Of a DNA stretch of 64,000 nucleotides, positions 33,651 through 38,682 are shown piece by piece (the first letter of the stretch is position 1; the number at the start of each line of letters is the position of its first letter). The stretch lies in NCBI GenBank assembly GCA_947476185.1, contig CANJPX010000012.1, positions 1 to 64,000 of the forward strand, given 5' to 3'. The notes under the pieces are model-generated. The model made no database searches and was not told the origin of the DNA. It saw only the letters and a list, made by a program, of their open reading frames with translations. This DNA comes from Bacteroidota bacterium (lineage in GTDB: Bacteria; Bacteroidota; Bacteroidia; 2-12-FULL-35-15). Both the position numbers and the translations under genes were made by a program.

Positions 33651-33741
33651 GTTTTTTTTATTTATTTGTCCGCTCAAAAGTAATAAAAATCCAGGAATTT
33701 TACCACTCATACGATTTTAAAATAAAACCACTTTAAAATGT

Positions 33742-33749
33742 TATTTTTG
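33742..33749 (+). promoter_or_regulatory. -7 promoter box (TATTTTTG) for the large amidohydrolase gene
   Basis: Exact TAnnTTTG match 18 bases before the ATG at 33768. It lies downstream of the alternative in-frame ATG at 33738 and so favours the later start. Confidence 0.55.
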
Positions 33750-33767
33750 TTTAGAACAATTTATAAC

Positions 33768-36700
33768 ATGAAAAAACATCTACTTTCCTTTTTAGCAATT
33801 TCTTTCTGCTTATCACTGTACGCACAGGAAACATTTCCTGTAAACGGAACTTCCGATAAAAACCATACTATTTATGCATTCATCAATGCAAAAATTATTG
33901 TTGATGCAGACGAAACGATCGATAACGGAACATTAGTCGTAAAAGACGGACTAATTTATTCTGTAGGCACAAAAATCCCTGTTCCACAAGGAGCTGTTAT
34001 ATATGACTTGAAAGGCAAATCAATATACCCCGGACTTATTGATGCATACACATCCTATGGAATGCAGGAACCTAAACGCATTTTCACTGGAGGCGGCCCA
34101 CAAGTAGAAAGCAATATTAAGGGAGCTTATGGATGGAATCAAGCAATAAAACCGGAAACGGATGCCGTAAAAATTTTCACAAAAGATGCTAAAATGGCTG
34201 AGGATATGCGCAGATTAGGATTTGGAGCCGTACTCACATTTCAAAAAGACGGAATAATAAGAGGCTCCGGATCTGTGGTATCACTTGGGGAAAGGCGTGA
34301 AAATGAATTGATAATCAGTGAAAAGGCTGCGGCTATGTATTCCTTTGACAAAGGAACATCTACGCAAGACTACCCTTCATCATTAATGGGATGTATCGCA
34401 TTAATGCGCCAAACCTATTTGGATGCAGCGTGGTATAAAGCCGACAAAACAAAAAAAGAATTTAACATCTCTTTAGACGCTTTTAATAATTTACTTTCTC
34501 TGCCTCAAATATTTGAAACTACCGACAAACTCAACGTTTTGAGAGCCGATAAGATCGGGGATGAATTCAAAGTTAATTACATCATGAAAGGAAGTGGCAA
34601 TGAATACCAACGTTTGGATGATATCAAAGCCAGCGGATGTAAATTTATTTTGCCAGTAAATTTTCCAATGGCATATGATGTTGAAGATGCGTACGATGCA
34701 AAATATGTTTCCCTTGCAGAATTAAAACATTGGGAAATGGCCCCTGCAAATCTTTTTGCAATGGAAAAATATTTTATCCCTTTCGCCATTACCAGCTCCG
34801 ACCTGAAAGATAAAAAGGATTTTTGGAAAAATTTACGCAAAGCAATTTCTTACGGTCTATCTGAAAAACAAGCCTTAAGATCACTGACAACAATTCCGGC
34901 TGAAATGTTGAACGTTAGTGATAAACTCGGAAAGATAAAAGGAGGCATGATAGCAAATTTTATCATTACTTCCGGAAATCTATTTGATGAAAAAACAATA
35001 ATTTATGAAAACTGGATTCAAGGAATAGATTATAAAATAATGGATTATAACACAATTGATATAAGAGGCAATTATGATTTTTCATTCGGACCGGAAAGAG
35101 TTTTGCATCAATTGAAAATAGAAGGGGAACCTGATAAAATAAAAGCCACATTATTCCTCGATACTACAAAAATTTCTGTGAATGCTGTTGTCGCAGGAAA
35201 TTCTATTTCATTAAGCTTTAATACAAAAGATGCAAACGGAACAATCCGTTTAAGCGGGAACATAACGAACGAACCAATACAAATGAAAGGTACAGGGCAA
35301 ACTCCGGATGGAGGTTGGATAAATTGGAGTGCCAACTATTCCGGCAAACTAATTTCAAATACAAAAAAGGATACAACGAAAAAAGATGCTCTTGATTTCG
35401 GGCAAGTGATTTATCCATTCTGTGCATATGGAAAACCACTTGATGATCACAATGGTTTTGATAAATATTTGACCGCTTTCAAAACGCGTTATGAGGCAGT
35501 TTTGATCAAACATGTTACTGTTTGGACAAATGAAGCAGAAGGTGTTTTAAAAAATCAGGATGTTTATATCACAGAAGGAAAAATTGTGCGTATCGCAGAT
35601 GATATCACCGCTCCTAAACTTTCTTTTGCAAAAGTGATCGATGGAACGGGAAAACATCTGACCGCAGGAATTATAGATGAGCATTCACATATCGCGCTAA
35701 GCGGTGTAAATGAAGGAACACAGGCATCAAGTGCAGAAGTGAGAATGGGTGATGTTGTAAATTCTGAGGACATAAATATTTACCGTCAACTTTCCGGAGG
35801 TGTTACTTCATCGCAATTATTGCATGGATCTGCAAATCCTATTGGAGGACAATCGGCCTTGATAAAATTACGCTGGGGAAAATCACCTGAAGAAATGAAA
35901 TTTGCGAAAGCAGACGGATTTATCAAATTTGCTTTAGGTGAAAATGTTAAACAAAGTAACTGGGGAGATGTGAATTCTATACGTTTCCCTCAGACAAGGA
36001 TGGGTGTAGAACAAGTATACTACGATTATTTTATCAGAGCAAAAGAATATGACGCAAAACAAAAAGCATACGAAGCATTGTCAGAAAAGGCAAAAACAGC
36101 TGCTTCACCTTTCAGAAAAGATCTTGAATTGGAGGCGATTGCTGAAATATTAAATAAAAAGCGGTTTATTACTTGTCATTCCTATGTTCAATCCGAAATA
36201 AACATGTTAATGCATGTAGCGGATTCAATGGGCTTCAAGGTAAATACGTTCACTCATATTTTAGAAGGATATAAGATAGCCGATAAGATGAAAGCAAATG
36301 ATGTGGGTGCTTCTTCTTTCAGTGATTGGTGGGCTTATAAAATGGAAGTTAAAGATGCCATTCCCTATAATGCTGCTATACTGACAAAAATGGGAATCAC
36401 AACAGCCATCAATTCAGATGATGCCGAAATGGGAAGAAGATTAAATCAGGAAGCAGCAAAATCAATCAAATATGGTGGATTAACAGAAGAAGAAGCATTA
36501 AAAATGGTTACCTTAAATCCTGCAAAATTATTACACATTGATAATAAGGTAGGCAGTATCAAGCTTGGTAAAGATGCTGATCTTGTTTTGTGGTCAGACA
36601 ATCCATTATCGATCTATGCGAAGGTTGAAAAAACAATTATTGACGGACAAATTTATTTCGATAATGAGGAAGATGCAAAAATGAGGATTGAAATTCAAAA

Positions 36701-36836
36701 AGAAAGAGCGCGTATAATTCAAAAAATGTTGGATGAGAAAAAAGGTGGGGCGCCAACACAAAAACCAATTTTTAAAAAACCACAATTATTTGGTTGTGAT
36801 AGCATGCAGGAGGATTATTTGAATAATGAAGAATAG
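33768..36836 (+). CDS. Secreted double amidohydrolase-family protein
   Basis: 1022 residues from ATG 33768; signal peptide to about LYAQE. The N-terminal half (about 30-430) has an amidohydrolase outline (GTLVVKDGLIYSVG, YPGLIDAYTSYG, the LRSLTTIPAEML end) but lacks the HxH metal motif. After a beta-rich linker, the C-terminal half (about 580-1000) is complete: HSH in GIIDEHSHIALSG, His in FITCHSYV and FTHILEGY, and Asp in AINSDDAEM, giving a likely metal site. Substrate unknown; metallo-dependent hydrolases of imidazolonepropionase or dipeptidase type are the nearest. A gene for a similar single-domain protein follows after the inverted-repeat element. Confidence 0.9.
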   Translation: MKKHLLSFLAISFCLSLYAQETFPVNGTSDKNHTIYAFINAKIIVDADETIDNGTLVVKDGLIYSVGTKIPVPQGAVIYDLKGKSIYPGLIDAYTSYGMQEPKRIFTGGGPQVESNIKGAYGWNQAIKPETDAVKIFTKDAKMAEDMRRLGFGAVLTFQKDGIIRGSGSVVSLGERRENELIISEKAAAMYSFDKGTSTQDYPSSLMGCIALMRQTYLDAAWYKADKTKKEFNISLDAFNNLLSLPQIFETTDKLNVLRADKIGDEFKVNYIMKGSGNEYQRLDDIKASGCKFILPVNFPMAYDVEDAYDAKYVSLAELKHWEMAPANLFAMEKYFIPFAITSSDLKDKKDFWKNLRKAISYGLSEKQALRSLTTIPAEMLNVSDKLGKIKGGMIANFIITSGNLFDEKTIIYENWIQGIDYKIMDYNTIDIRGNYDFSFGPERVLHQLKIEGEPDKIKATLFLDTTKISVNAVVAGNSISLSFNTKDANGTIRLSGNITNEPIQMKGTGQTPDGGWINWSANYSGKLISNTKKDTTKKDALDFGQVIYPFCAYGKPLDDHNGFDKYLTAFKTRYEAVLIKHVTVWTNEAEGVLKNQDVYITEGKIVRIADDITAPKLSFAKVIDGTGKHLTAGIIDEHSHIALSGVNEGTQASSAEVRMGDVVNSEDINIYRQLSGGVTSSQLLHGSANPIGGQSALIKLRWGKSPEEMKFAKADGFIKFALGENVKQSNWGDVNSIRFPQTRMGVEQVYYDYFIRAKEYDAKQKAYEALSEKAKTAASPFRKDLELEAIAEILNKKRFITCHSYVQSEINMLMHVADSMGFKVNTFTHILEGYKIADKMKANDVGASSFSDWWAYKMEVKDAIPYNAAILTKMGITTAINSDDAEMGRRLNQEAAKSIKYGGLTEEEALKMVTLNPAKLLHIDNKVGSIKLGKDADLVLWSDNPLSIYAKVEKTIIDGQIYFDNEEDAKMRIEIQKERARIIQKMLDEKKGGAPTQKPIFKKPQLFGCDSMQEDYLNNEE

Positions 36837-36840
36837 AAAA

Positions 36841-36874
36841 GATAGGAACGCAGATCTATAATGATTTTTATGAT
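36841..36874 (+). repeat. Left 34-bp inverted repeat of the GxxExxY element
   Basis: Begins GATAGGAACGCAGATCTATA and ends in two ATGAT words separated by four T. It is identical, in reverse complement, to 37346-37379. The match stops cleanly at both ends. Confidence 0.97.
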
Positions 36875-36902
36875 TTTTTAAGATAAACAATTCAAAATAT
36901 TT

Positions 36903-37323
36903 ATGATTGGAGATAATTTTAAACATTCGGAATTAACTAAGAAAATAATAAAAGCATATTACAATGTTTACAATAATTTAGGATACGGCTTTTTGGAAAA
37001 GATATACGAAAACGCTATGATCATTGAGTTAGAGCAACAAAGGTTAGAATGCGAAAAACAAAAACTAATAACTGTATTTTACGATAAAATATGTGTTGGT
37101 AATTACTTTGCAGACATAATTGTTGAAAAAAAGTAATCATTGAATTGAAGGCATGCGAATATTTAATTAAAGACCATAAAATCCAACTTGTAAATTATTT
37201 AAAAGCAACTGAAATAGAAGTTGGATTATTATTAAACTTTGGAAAAGAAGTAGAATAAAAAGAAAAGTATTGTCAAACGACTTTAAAAGAAACATAAAAA
37301 TAGAAAACATAAAAATATCATAA
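36903..37323 (+). pseudogene. GxxExxY-family (PD-(D/E)XK-like) protein, broken by two frameshifts
   Basis: The first frame gives 77 residues with the family signature GFLEKIY (29-35) and ADIIVEKK, then stops at 37136 right after a run of seven A. One added A would continue into VIIELKACEYLIKDHKIQLVNYL..., the rest of the nuclease-like core, up to a second stop at 37258. One more base there would continue KRKVLSNDFKR to 37323, the normal family ending. The family is assigned to the PD-(D/E)XK nuclease superfamily; the first frameshift separates the Asp (Asp71) from the E-x-K of IELKA. Either real decay or two sequencing indels in A-runs. Confidence 0.85.
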
Positions 37324-37345
37324 GACACACAGCTATCCTTTTTTT

Positions 37346-37379
37346 ATCATAAAAATCATTATAGATCTGCGTTCCTATC
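37346..37379 (-). repeat. Right 34-bp inverted repeat of the GxxExxY element
   Basis: Perfect reverse-complement copy of 36841-36874, ending 13 bases before the ATG of the next amidohydrolase-like gene, so it may alter that gene's leader. Confidence 0.97.
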
Positions 37380-37392
37380 AACACTAACAACC

Positions 37393-38682
37393 ATGAGAAA
37401 ACAAATTCTATTCATTTTACTATTCCTACCTATCATCACCTTCGCACAAACCAAAAGTGTTTTGATCATGAATGGTACTGCACATCTGGGCAACGATAGT
37501 GTTATTCAAAATTCAATTATTGGAATAAAAAACGGAAAAATAATTTTAGTCGCAGATGCAAAAACTGCGAATTTTGATAAGACAGCTTATGATGAAATTA
37601 TTGATGCGAAAGGGAAAAATATATACCCGGGGTTGATCGCTCCGAATTCAACATTAGGATTAACAGAAATAGAATCGGTAAGAGCAACAAATGATTTCAG
37701 AGAGGTGGGAACCACTTTGCCAAACATACGTTCATTGATCGCATACAATACCGATTCAAAGATCATTCCTACCGTTCGCAGTAATGGGGTTCTGCTTGCT
37801 CAAATCACTCCACGTGGCGGACTAATTTCCGGGACATCCAGTGTTGTTATTTTGGATGGCTGGAACTGGGAAGATGCTGCCTATAAAACGGATGATGGAG
37901 TTCATATTAATTGGCCAACAATTCAAGGTCGAAAATTTTTAGATGAAGACAATATTTTCCCGGGACCATTTGAAAAGAACAAAGATTATATTAAACAAAC
38001 AGCGGTTTTGAAAAAATTATTTGCAGATGCCAAAGCATATAATGAAACGGACGTTAAAGTGGAAACAAATCTTCGCTTTGAGGCAATGAAAGGATTATTC
38101 ACCGGGACACAAACATTATTCATCCATAGTAATGCCGTAAAAGAAATGGTAGAAGCGATCAATTTTGTAAAACAAAACAAGATCCAGAAGGTGGTGATCG
38201 TTGGAGGAAAAGATAGCTGGATGATAACCGATCTCTTAAAACAAAATAATATTTCTGTCATTATTTCACGCGTACACGATCTGCCAACCTATCAGGAAGA
38301 TGATGTTGACTTGCCATACAAACTTCCCTATTTGCTTCAGAAAGCCGGTGTGCTTTTTTGTTTAAATAACGAAGGAGATATGGAAGCAATGGGTGCCAGA
38401 AATTTACCATTTATGGCTGGAACAGCTGCCGCATATGGATTAACAAAAGAACAGGCATTGAGATCAGTTACATTAAATACGGCAAAAATACTTGGCATCG
38501 ATAAAACAACAGGAAGCATCGAAGTGGGAAAGGATGCTACTATATTTATTTCAACAGGAGATGCGTTGGATATGAAAAGCAATAATGTGGAAAGAGCATT
38601 TATAAAAGGAACCAATATAGACCTGAATACTGATCAAAATGATCTTTACGAAAAATACAAAAAGAAATACGGGATCAAATGA
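37393..38682 (+). CDS. Secreted amidohydrolase-like protein lacking the HxH metal motif
   Basis: 429 residues with a signal peptide cut near TFAQT (about 18). The fold outline is amidohydrolase: SVIQNSIIGIKNGKIILV, NIYPGLIAPNSTLGL where HxH is expected, and the closing TKEQALRSVTLNTAKILGID and GSIEVGKDATIFI. The position of the usual HxH reads APNST, so the metal site is not standard and the protein may be non-catalytic. It resembles the N-terminal half of the large gene upstream, which also lacks HxH, and probably works with it. Confidence 0.88.
   Translation: MRKQILFILLFLPIITFAQTKSVLIMNGTAHLGNDSVIQNSIIGIKNGKIILVADAKTANFDKTAYDEIIDAKGKNIYPGLIAPNSTLGLTEIESVRATNDFREVGTTLPNIRSLIAYNTDSKIIPTVRSNGVLLAQITPRGGLISGTSSVVILDGWNWEDAAYKTDDGVHINWPTIQGRKFLDEDNIFPGPFEKNKDYIKQTAVLKKLFADAKAYNETDVKVETNLRFEAMKGLFTGTQTLFIHSNAVKEMVEAINFVKQNKIQKVVIVGGKDSWMITDLLKQNNISVIISRVHDLPTYQEDDVDLPYKLPYLLQKAGVLFCLNNEGDMEAMGARNLPFMAGTAAAYGLTKEQALRSVTLNTAKILGIDKTTGSIEVGKDATIFISTGDALDMKSNNVERAFIKGTNIDLNTDQNDLYEKYKKKYGIK

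Follow-up and report, generated by a model that had tools for sequence, protein, structure and literature searches.

The unit at positions 36841..37379 (+ strand, 539 bp) of the window, the 64,000-nucleotide stretch of DNA analysed here (contig C12 of genome G000), is on balance probably a decayed copy of an insertion element in which a nuclease gene of the GxxExxY family lies between two inverted arrays of short repeats, and in which the nuclease recognises the arrays at its own ends and spreads gene-less copies. Comparison of related sequences shows an association of array and gene, specificity, insertion at orthologous sites, turnover and purifying selection; recognition of the DNA by the protein, nicking or cleavage, and copying or transposition are steps that we infer from these patterns. 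The preliminary description of this DNA had proposed a selfish element whose nuclease recognises its own ends. That proposal gains strong comparative support, although the copy in the window turns out to be a pseudogene.

The limits of the unit are set by the ends of its inverted repeat and by the short armless gaps found at orthologous sites. The left arm (36841..36874, +), a member of the family described by our arm model R1, contains the GAT-type units CGCAGAT (36849-36855), AATGAT (36860-36865) and TATGAT (36869-36874), all on the + strand. The right arm (37346..37379, - strand) is its inward-facing copy, complementary at 34/34 positions across a spacer of 471 nt; by our own estimate, given the base composition, the chance expectation for a 34-nt inverted match in 64 kb is far below 1e-9. 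The element lies between two amidohydrolase genes, as had been described, and both match PF01979: the upstream gene at 33738..36836 (+, 1032 aa, E 2.6e-24) and the downstream gene at 37393..38682 (+, 429 aa, E 3.6e-10). In species without the element these two genes are adjacent.

Between the arms, the 5' part of a GxxExxY gene (36903..37136, +, 77 aa) matches PF13366 (E 5.8e-21) and TIGR04256 (E 4.1e-20), and its score of 72.3 bits, against a curated cut-off of 35, places it in the family. The first frame ends at a frameshift stop at 37136, and the 3' part continues in a different frame (37121..37249, +; family positions 66-108; TIGR04256 E 6.9e-13) that holds a further, internal stop. The earlier picture of a single GxxExxY gene inside a perfect 34-bp repeat is thus right as to repeat and family and wrong as to the state of the gene, which is frameshifted: the window carries a pseudogene of the GxxExxY/PDDEXK_3 family. 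The copy at the same site in the sister species G031 is likewise broken, and intact genes occupy the same amidohydrolase gap in G003, G010, G025, G016 and G035. The frameshifts fall within A-runs of a draft assembly, a caveat on their reality. They would also suit an inverted repeat standing alone around a degraded reading frame, produced by chance or by assembly error; this explanation is refuted by orthologous elements with arms at the amidohydrolase site in about 17 species and by the same design across phyla, and we discard it.

Amidohydrolase gaps that lack the gene are either armless and 18-52 bp long (L068, L078, L081, L083) or retain one arm as a scar (L071, L086, L087). Both arms are found in none, so that the idea of an element holds up against relatives without the gene. 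In the amidohydrolase gap of G015 (L082) the right arm is present in several tandem copies downstream of the gene, one of which, compared by eye, equals the left arm exactly. Elsewhere, when the flanks of four gene-less G003 elements are joined, they align unbroken in several sister species, giving clean empty sites, and the element at L123 lies precisely between a pair of convergent genes that abut at their ends in G010, G000, G016 and G031. L123 provides the best comparison of filled and empty sites, and no target-site duplication is visible there. A further element, on contig C52, is common to G000 and its sister G031, its site being empty in G025 and G006.

The elements also turn over. One junction, apparently between hemD and hemB judging from the encoded protein ends, is occupied in G008 and G028 by an element with the gene and in G010 by a pair without it. 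At the amidohydrolase site, the flanking genes of G003 and G035 are 91/87% identical and the elements 72%, whereas G003 and G025 have flanks of 80/79% identity and elements of 91%. Because element and flank divergence disagree in this way, elements at this site must have been replaced or exchanged and not solely inherited. One small nuclease gene at fixed sites, present or absent by species, together with replacement of the element at one site, is what a homing-type element would produce, its nuclease cutting element-free alleles and repair copying the element in, with the arrays incidental. We think this very improbable: the arrays lie inside the element and none was found in the armless empty amidohydrolase sites, so that no array would mark the empty allele for cutting, and gene-less copies occur at many unrelated sites.

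Arms of the window type are dispersed through the genus. Targeted searches of the window's own genome located an inverted pair of about 530 bp on C52, around a small gene of another kind that matches nothing in Pfam or NCBIfam, a gene-less inverted pair of about 142 bp on C35, and a lone arm on C5 (L008) upstream of a gene that, from our own reading of the encoded sequence, we take to be dnaG. The reading frame enclosed on C52 (L009:1500-2030) is lipoprotein-like. Beside the lone arm on C5 lies the short sequence CACCCTGAGCAGAGTCGAAGG, which is widely dispersed in these genomes and represents a separate repeat family. The arm model R1 (38 nt, from seven arms, built on the window's genome) matches in 30 of 36 genus genomes, with 1 to 83 matches per genome. 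The 30 loci retrieved from G003 and G010 comprise lone arms and gene-less inverted pairs of 118-235 bp, with the consensus arm end ATAGGAACGCAGATTTTTTATGATTTTTATGATAAAAAATGATTTTT. By our own count among the matches listed, pairs of R1 matches less than 650 nt apart include about 20 that face inward and none that face outward.

Arm copy number has a median of 10 in genomes with the gene and 4 in those without (p=0.0036), the genomes being treated without correction for phylogeny and R1 deriving from the window's genome; some genomes carry arms yet have no gene at the amidohydrolase site. The suggested tie between end repeat and nuclease gene survives in that other GxxExxY genes are also flanked by inverted end arrays, and is loosened in that arms also occur without a gene and once with another gene. 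That the gene-less elements arose from the right-hand end of the gene-bearing one was considered and dropped, the similarity between their interiors and that end being non-significant (p=0.25). Many gene-less elements, among them L130, L132, L134, L144 and L148, have a small internal hairpin, for example TTGCCTTTGGCAA, following a TTTATGATTTA motif.

On both sides of GxxExxY genes lie inverted, inward-facing arrays built from a degenerate heptamer (CRCAGAG, CRCAGAT, CGCAAAG, CACGAAG and others), and such an array is the relevant unit, the 34-bp arm being one local form of it. The same design with other sequences, such as ACCACAGATTACACAGATTTTCACAGAT, CACAGAGACACAGAGGTCACAGAG and CGCAAAGAACGCAAAG, is seen at 29 GxxExxY genes of relatives, where left and right arrays resemble each other more within a locus (mean 20.0) than across loci (12.2). 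The heptamers are spaced by about 9-10 nt, with an autocorrelation peak at 9-10 nt, which is close to one helical turn. Clustered heptamers are present at 22 of 27 GxxExxY loci, against 0/23 loci of Y1_Tnp genes and 0/26 of TIGR02436 four-helix-bundle genes, and arrays with a triple CAGAK pattern were found in 25 of 31 genomes, the reversed control pattern being almost without matches.

A wider scan of a sequence collection, made with a narrower alignment (A4) because the first (A3) was too diverse, gave the same inverted similarity at 80 named loci (15.75 within loci, 10.0 across loci, p=3e-25). These belong to Bacteroidota, Ignavibacteriota, Chlorobiota, Chloroflexota, Planctomycetota, Verrucomicrobiota, Acidobacteriota, Pseudomonadota and Elusimicrobiota, together with one Methanophagales archaeon. 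We found the array sequences printed in no paper of the open-access literature. The arrays translate as TTEAQR-like peptides (L051, and protein starts at L168, L175, L182 and L191); where annotated proteins or gene starts show repeats of this kind, the sequence may be array DNA translated in error.

Array type appears to cluster with nuclease clade. Placed on the nuclease tree, heptamer type requires 29 changes, compared with 44.4 when shuffled, and none of 200 shuffles was as low; a cross-phylum identity test of the match between type and clade was not significant. Residue F3 accompanies CACGAAG at 6/6 loci and occurs at 0/77 others, and residue 7 varies with heptamer position 5 (S with A in 15 cases and T with G in 55, with 9 + 2 discordant), both links being post hoc, from columns picked by scanning, and tests on independent pairs pointing in the same direction while underpowered.

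Intact GxxExxY copies at the amidohydrolase site have dN/dS values of 0.04-0.10 in close pairs, indicating purifying selection. The orthologues conserve the GxxExxY and PD-(D/E)XK residues; E, D, ExK and QxxxY are all retained. An intact orthologue matches PF13366 only (E 6.2e-42). The predicted structure of the protein (pLDDT 88.9) is closest to SSO0001, which we take to be a Cas4-type exonuclease, followed by LHK-Exo, lambda exonuclease and Hjc; PADLOC reports weak Cas4 similarity only (3.7e-5). The model suggests that GxxExxY is a minimal Cas4/lambda-exonuclease-like PD-(D/E)XK nuclease, presumably with catalytic activity. The gene is found in 53 of 59 related genomes, with up to 20 matches in one, and several paralogues per genome are common. 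On plasmids the family occurs in 8 of 72,556 records, and among 50,697 phage records it does not occur. The open-access literature yielded no function for GxxExxY, the name appearing there in unrelated papers alone.

Such a distribution bears on a different reading, in which the arrays are repeats between genes with a regulatory or structural role (as terminator, mRNA-processing or nucleoid sites) that spread passively, and GxxExxY is a host protein acting on them, for example an RNA- or DNA-processing regulator. Strong purifying selection, rarity on plasmids and absence from phages do suggest a resident host gene; the elements are intergenic, often at stop codons, and one element without the gene gives a good RNA fold (z -4.6). 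We nevertheless hold this reading to be unlikely, given the clean presence or absence at orthologous sites, the turnover of elements and the lack of any Rfam match. Moreover, in 15 elements the arms are as complementary between elements (27.56) as within them (27.47, p=0.60), and their mismatches show no G-U bias. Conservation of the arms as an RNA stem was rejected for want of pair-specific complementarity in these 15 elements, and since complementarity is no higher between the two arms of an element than between arms of different elements, recognition of a consensus is favoured over an RNA stem.

Inverted arrays also lie on either side of TIGR02436 four-helix-bundle genes (the IVS/S23 protein family) in these genomes. 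Their sequence is different and they repeat every 7 nt exactly; the match is 0.71 at lags of 7 and 14, and 0.30-0.32 in shuffled sequence. The loci are L357-L386 of relatives, for instance L357, L359 and L369, together with G000:C7:55458-55766, an example of the array being TTAGATTTGAGATGTGAGATATGAGAT. Genes other than those of nucleases thus share the array-flanked design. Either there are two protein families, each with arrays that it recognises, or no nuclease is required for the process that gives rise to the architecture. The presence of these arrays in the same genomes therefore lowers our confidence in a nuclease-driven model and raises the general interest of the architecture.

The four-helix-bundle genes, with their like architecture, could suit an explanation in which other machinery (a Y1/HUH or other transposase, or replication slippage at hairpins) moves the elements and GxxExxY is a passenger. 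The arms on C52 that enclose a different small gene agree with it, as does the presence of Y1_Tnp genes in 29 of 36 genus genomes. We judge it rather improbable, however: no Y1_Tnp match was found in G000, G010, G028 or G031, all of which have elements with arms, and the arrays track nuclease clade, which is unexpected for a passenger. Y1 transposases were rejected as owners of the heptamer arrays, since their loci lack these arrays (0/23) and have different palindromes of their own. Such inverted palindromic repeats, for example GCCCCGGAGGGGC, are seen at L319, L323, L325 and L328, and the Y1_Tnp loci of the genus are apparently ordinary REPtrons or TIRtrons.

If the unit is instead an array-nuclease-array element, as we favour, the nuclease would bind arrays of its own type, with its N-terminal segment among the contacts, and would process the element ends. 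Copies of the element, and of gene-less derivatives bounded by ends of the same kind, would thereby reach new sites between genes, for the most part at gene ends, a dispersal that would be analogous to the proposed action of RAYTs on REPINs and of TIRYTs on TIRs. Weighed against a nuclease-driven element were the lack of a target-site duplication, the TIGR02436 arrays, the non-significant cross-phylum test and the gene-less interiors that are not clearly derived.

A broader possibility, which we put forward tentatively and hold to be less probable than the reading of the window unit itself, is that bacteria of many phyla and archaea share insertion elements with just one gene, for a minimal Cas4/lambda-exonuclease-like nuclease that reads a spaced-heptamer code in the ends of its own element and scatters copies lacking the gene, with a four-helix-bundle counterpart that uses 7-nt arrays. 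The family of array-nuclease-array elements, from Bacteroidota to archaea, is apparently undescribed, and we found no published description in the open-access literature. GxxExxY is a common gene of environmental bacteria, and a role as the enzyme of an array-guided element would account for the gene and, with it, for a large class of repeats that are dispersed. It would constitute a transposition-like system based on a nuclease resembling Cas4 and would offer ready pairs of protein and DNA motif for reading a recognition code. Taken together, the nuclease and four-helix-bundle systems would disperse DNA in a new way that involves no DDE, HUH, tyrosine or serine recombinase.

Rpn proteins are of the PD-(D/E)XK type, and GxxExxY forms a separate family, the intact orthologue having no match to the Rpn family PF04754. 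We know of no inverted arrays for Rpn. These recombination-promoting nucleases have a proposed role in DNA mobility (PMC5350276). MITEs and insertion sequences share with the present elements short gene-less inverted-repeat copies with matching ends, but no transposase domain was found in the element here and no target-site duplication is seen at L123. The IVS/S23 element of 23S rRNA, with a four-helix-bundle reading frame, has been called selfish (PMC4990558). It resembles the present element as a small, single-gene selfish element, and its TIGR02436 relatives here are also flanked by inverted degenerate arrays; the protein, however, is unrelated, and those arrays differ in sequence and repeat at exactly 7 nt.

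The closest parallels are with repeat families served by RAYT-like enzymes. In TIRtrons, RAYT-like genes (TIRYTs) lie between TIRs that form repeat families (PMC3733652); the arrangement of one gene between terminal inverted repeats that are also dispersed is the same, whereas the enzyme class differs and the repeats here are built of heptamers spaced by 9-10 nt. In the REPIN-RAYT system, REP-associated tyrosine transposases are thought to spread REPINs (PMC8049555). Common to both are a chromosomal enzyme gene flanked by repeats (PMC8049555), dispersed single units and short gene-less inverted pairs that share the enzyme-flanking sequence, more repeats in gene-bearing genomes, purifying selection, and rarity or absence on plasmids and phages. 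As to vertical chromosomal inheritance, a mark of REPIN-RAYT, the signs are mixed: GxxExxY lies at one site in about 17 species and is rare on plasmids, yet the divergences of element and flanks disagree. The differences lie in the enzyme, a PD-(D/E)XK nuclease and not an HUH Y1 protein (G000 has no PF01797 match), in the repeats, which are spaced CNCAGAK/TATGAT-type heptamer arrays and not GTAG-tagged palindromes, and in the several GxxExxY paralogues that are common per genome. By analogy, the array-nuclease-array element would work like a RAYT/REPIN system or a TIRtron but, having no HUH enzyme, would belong to neither.
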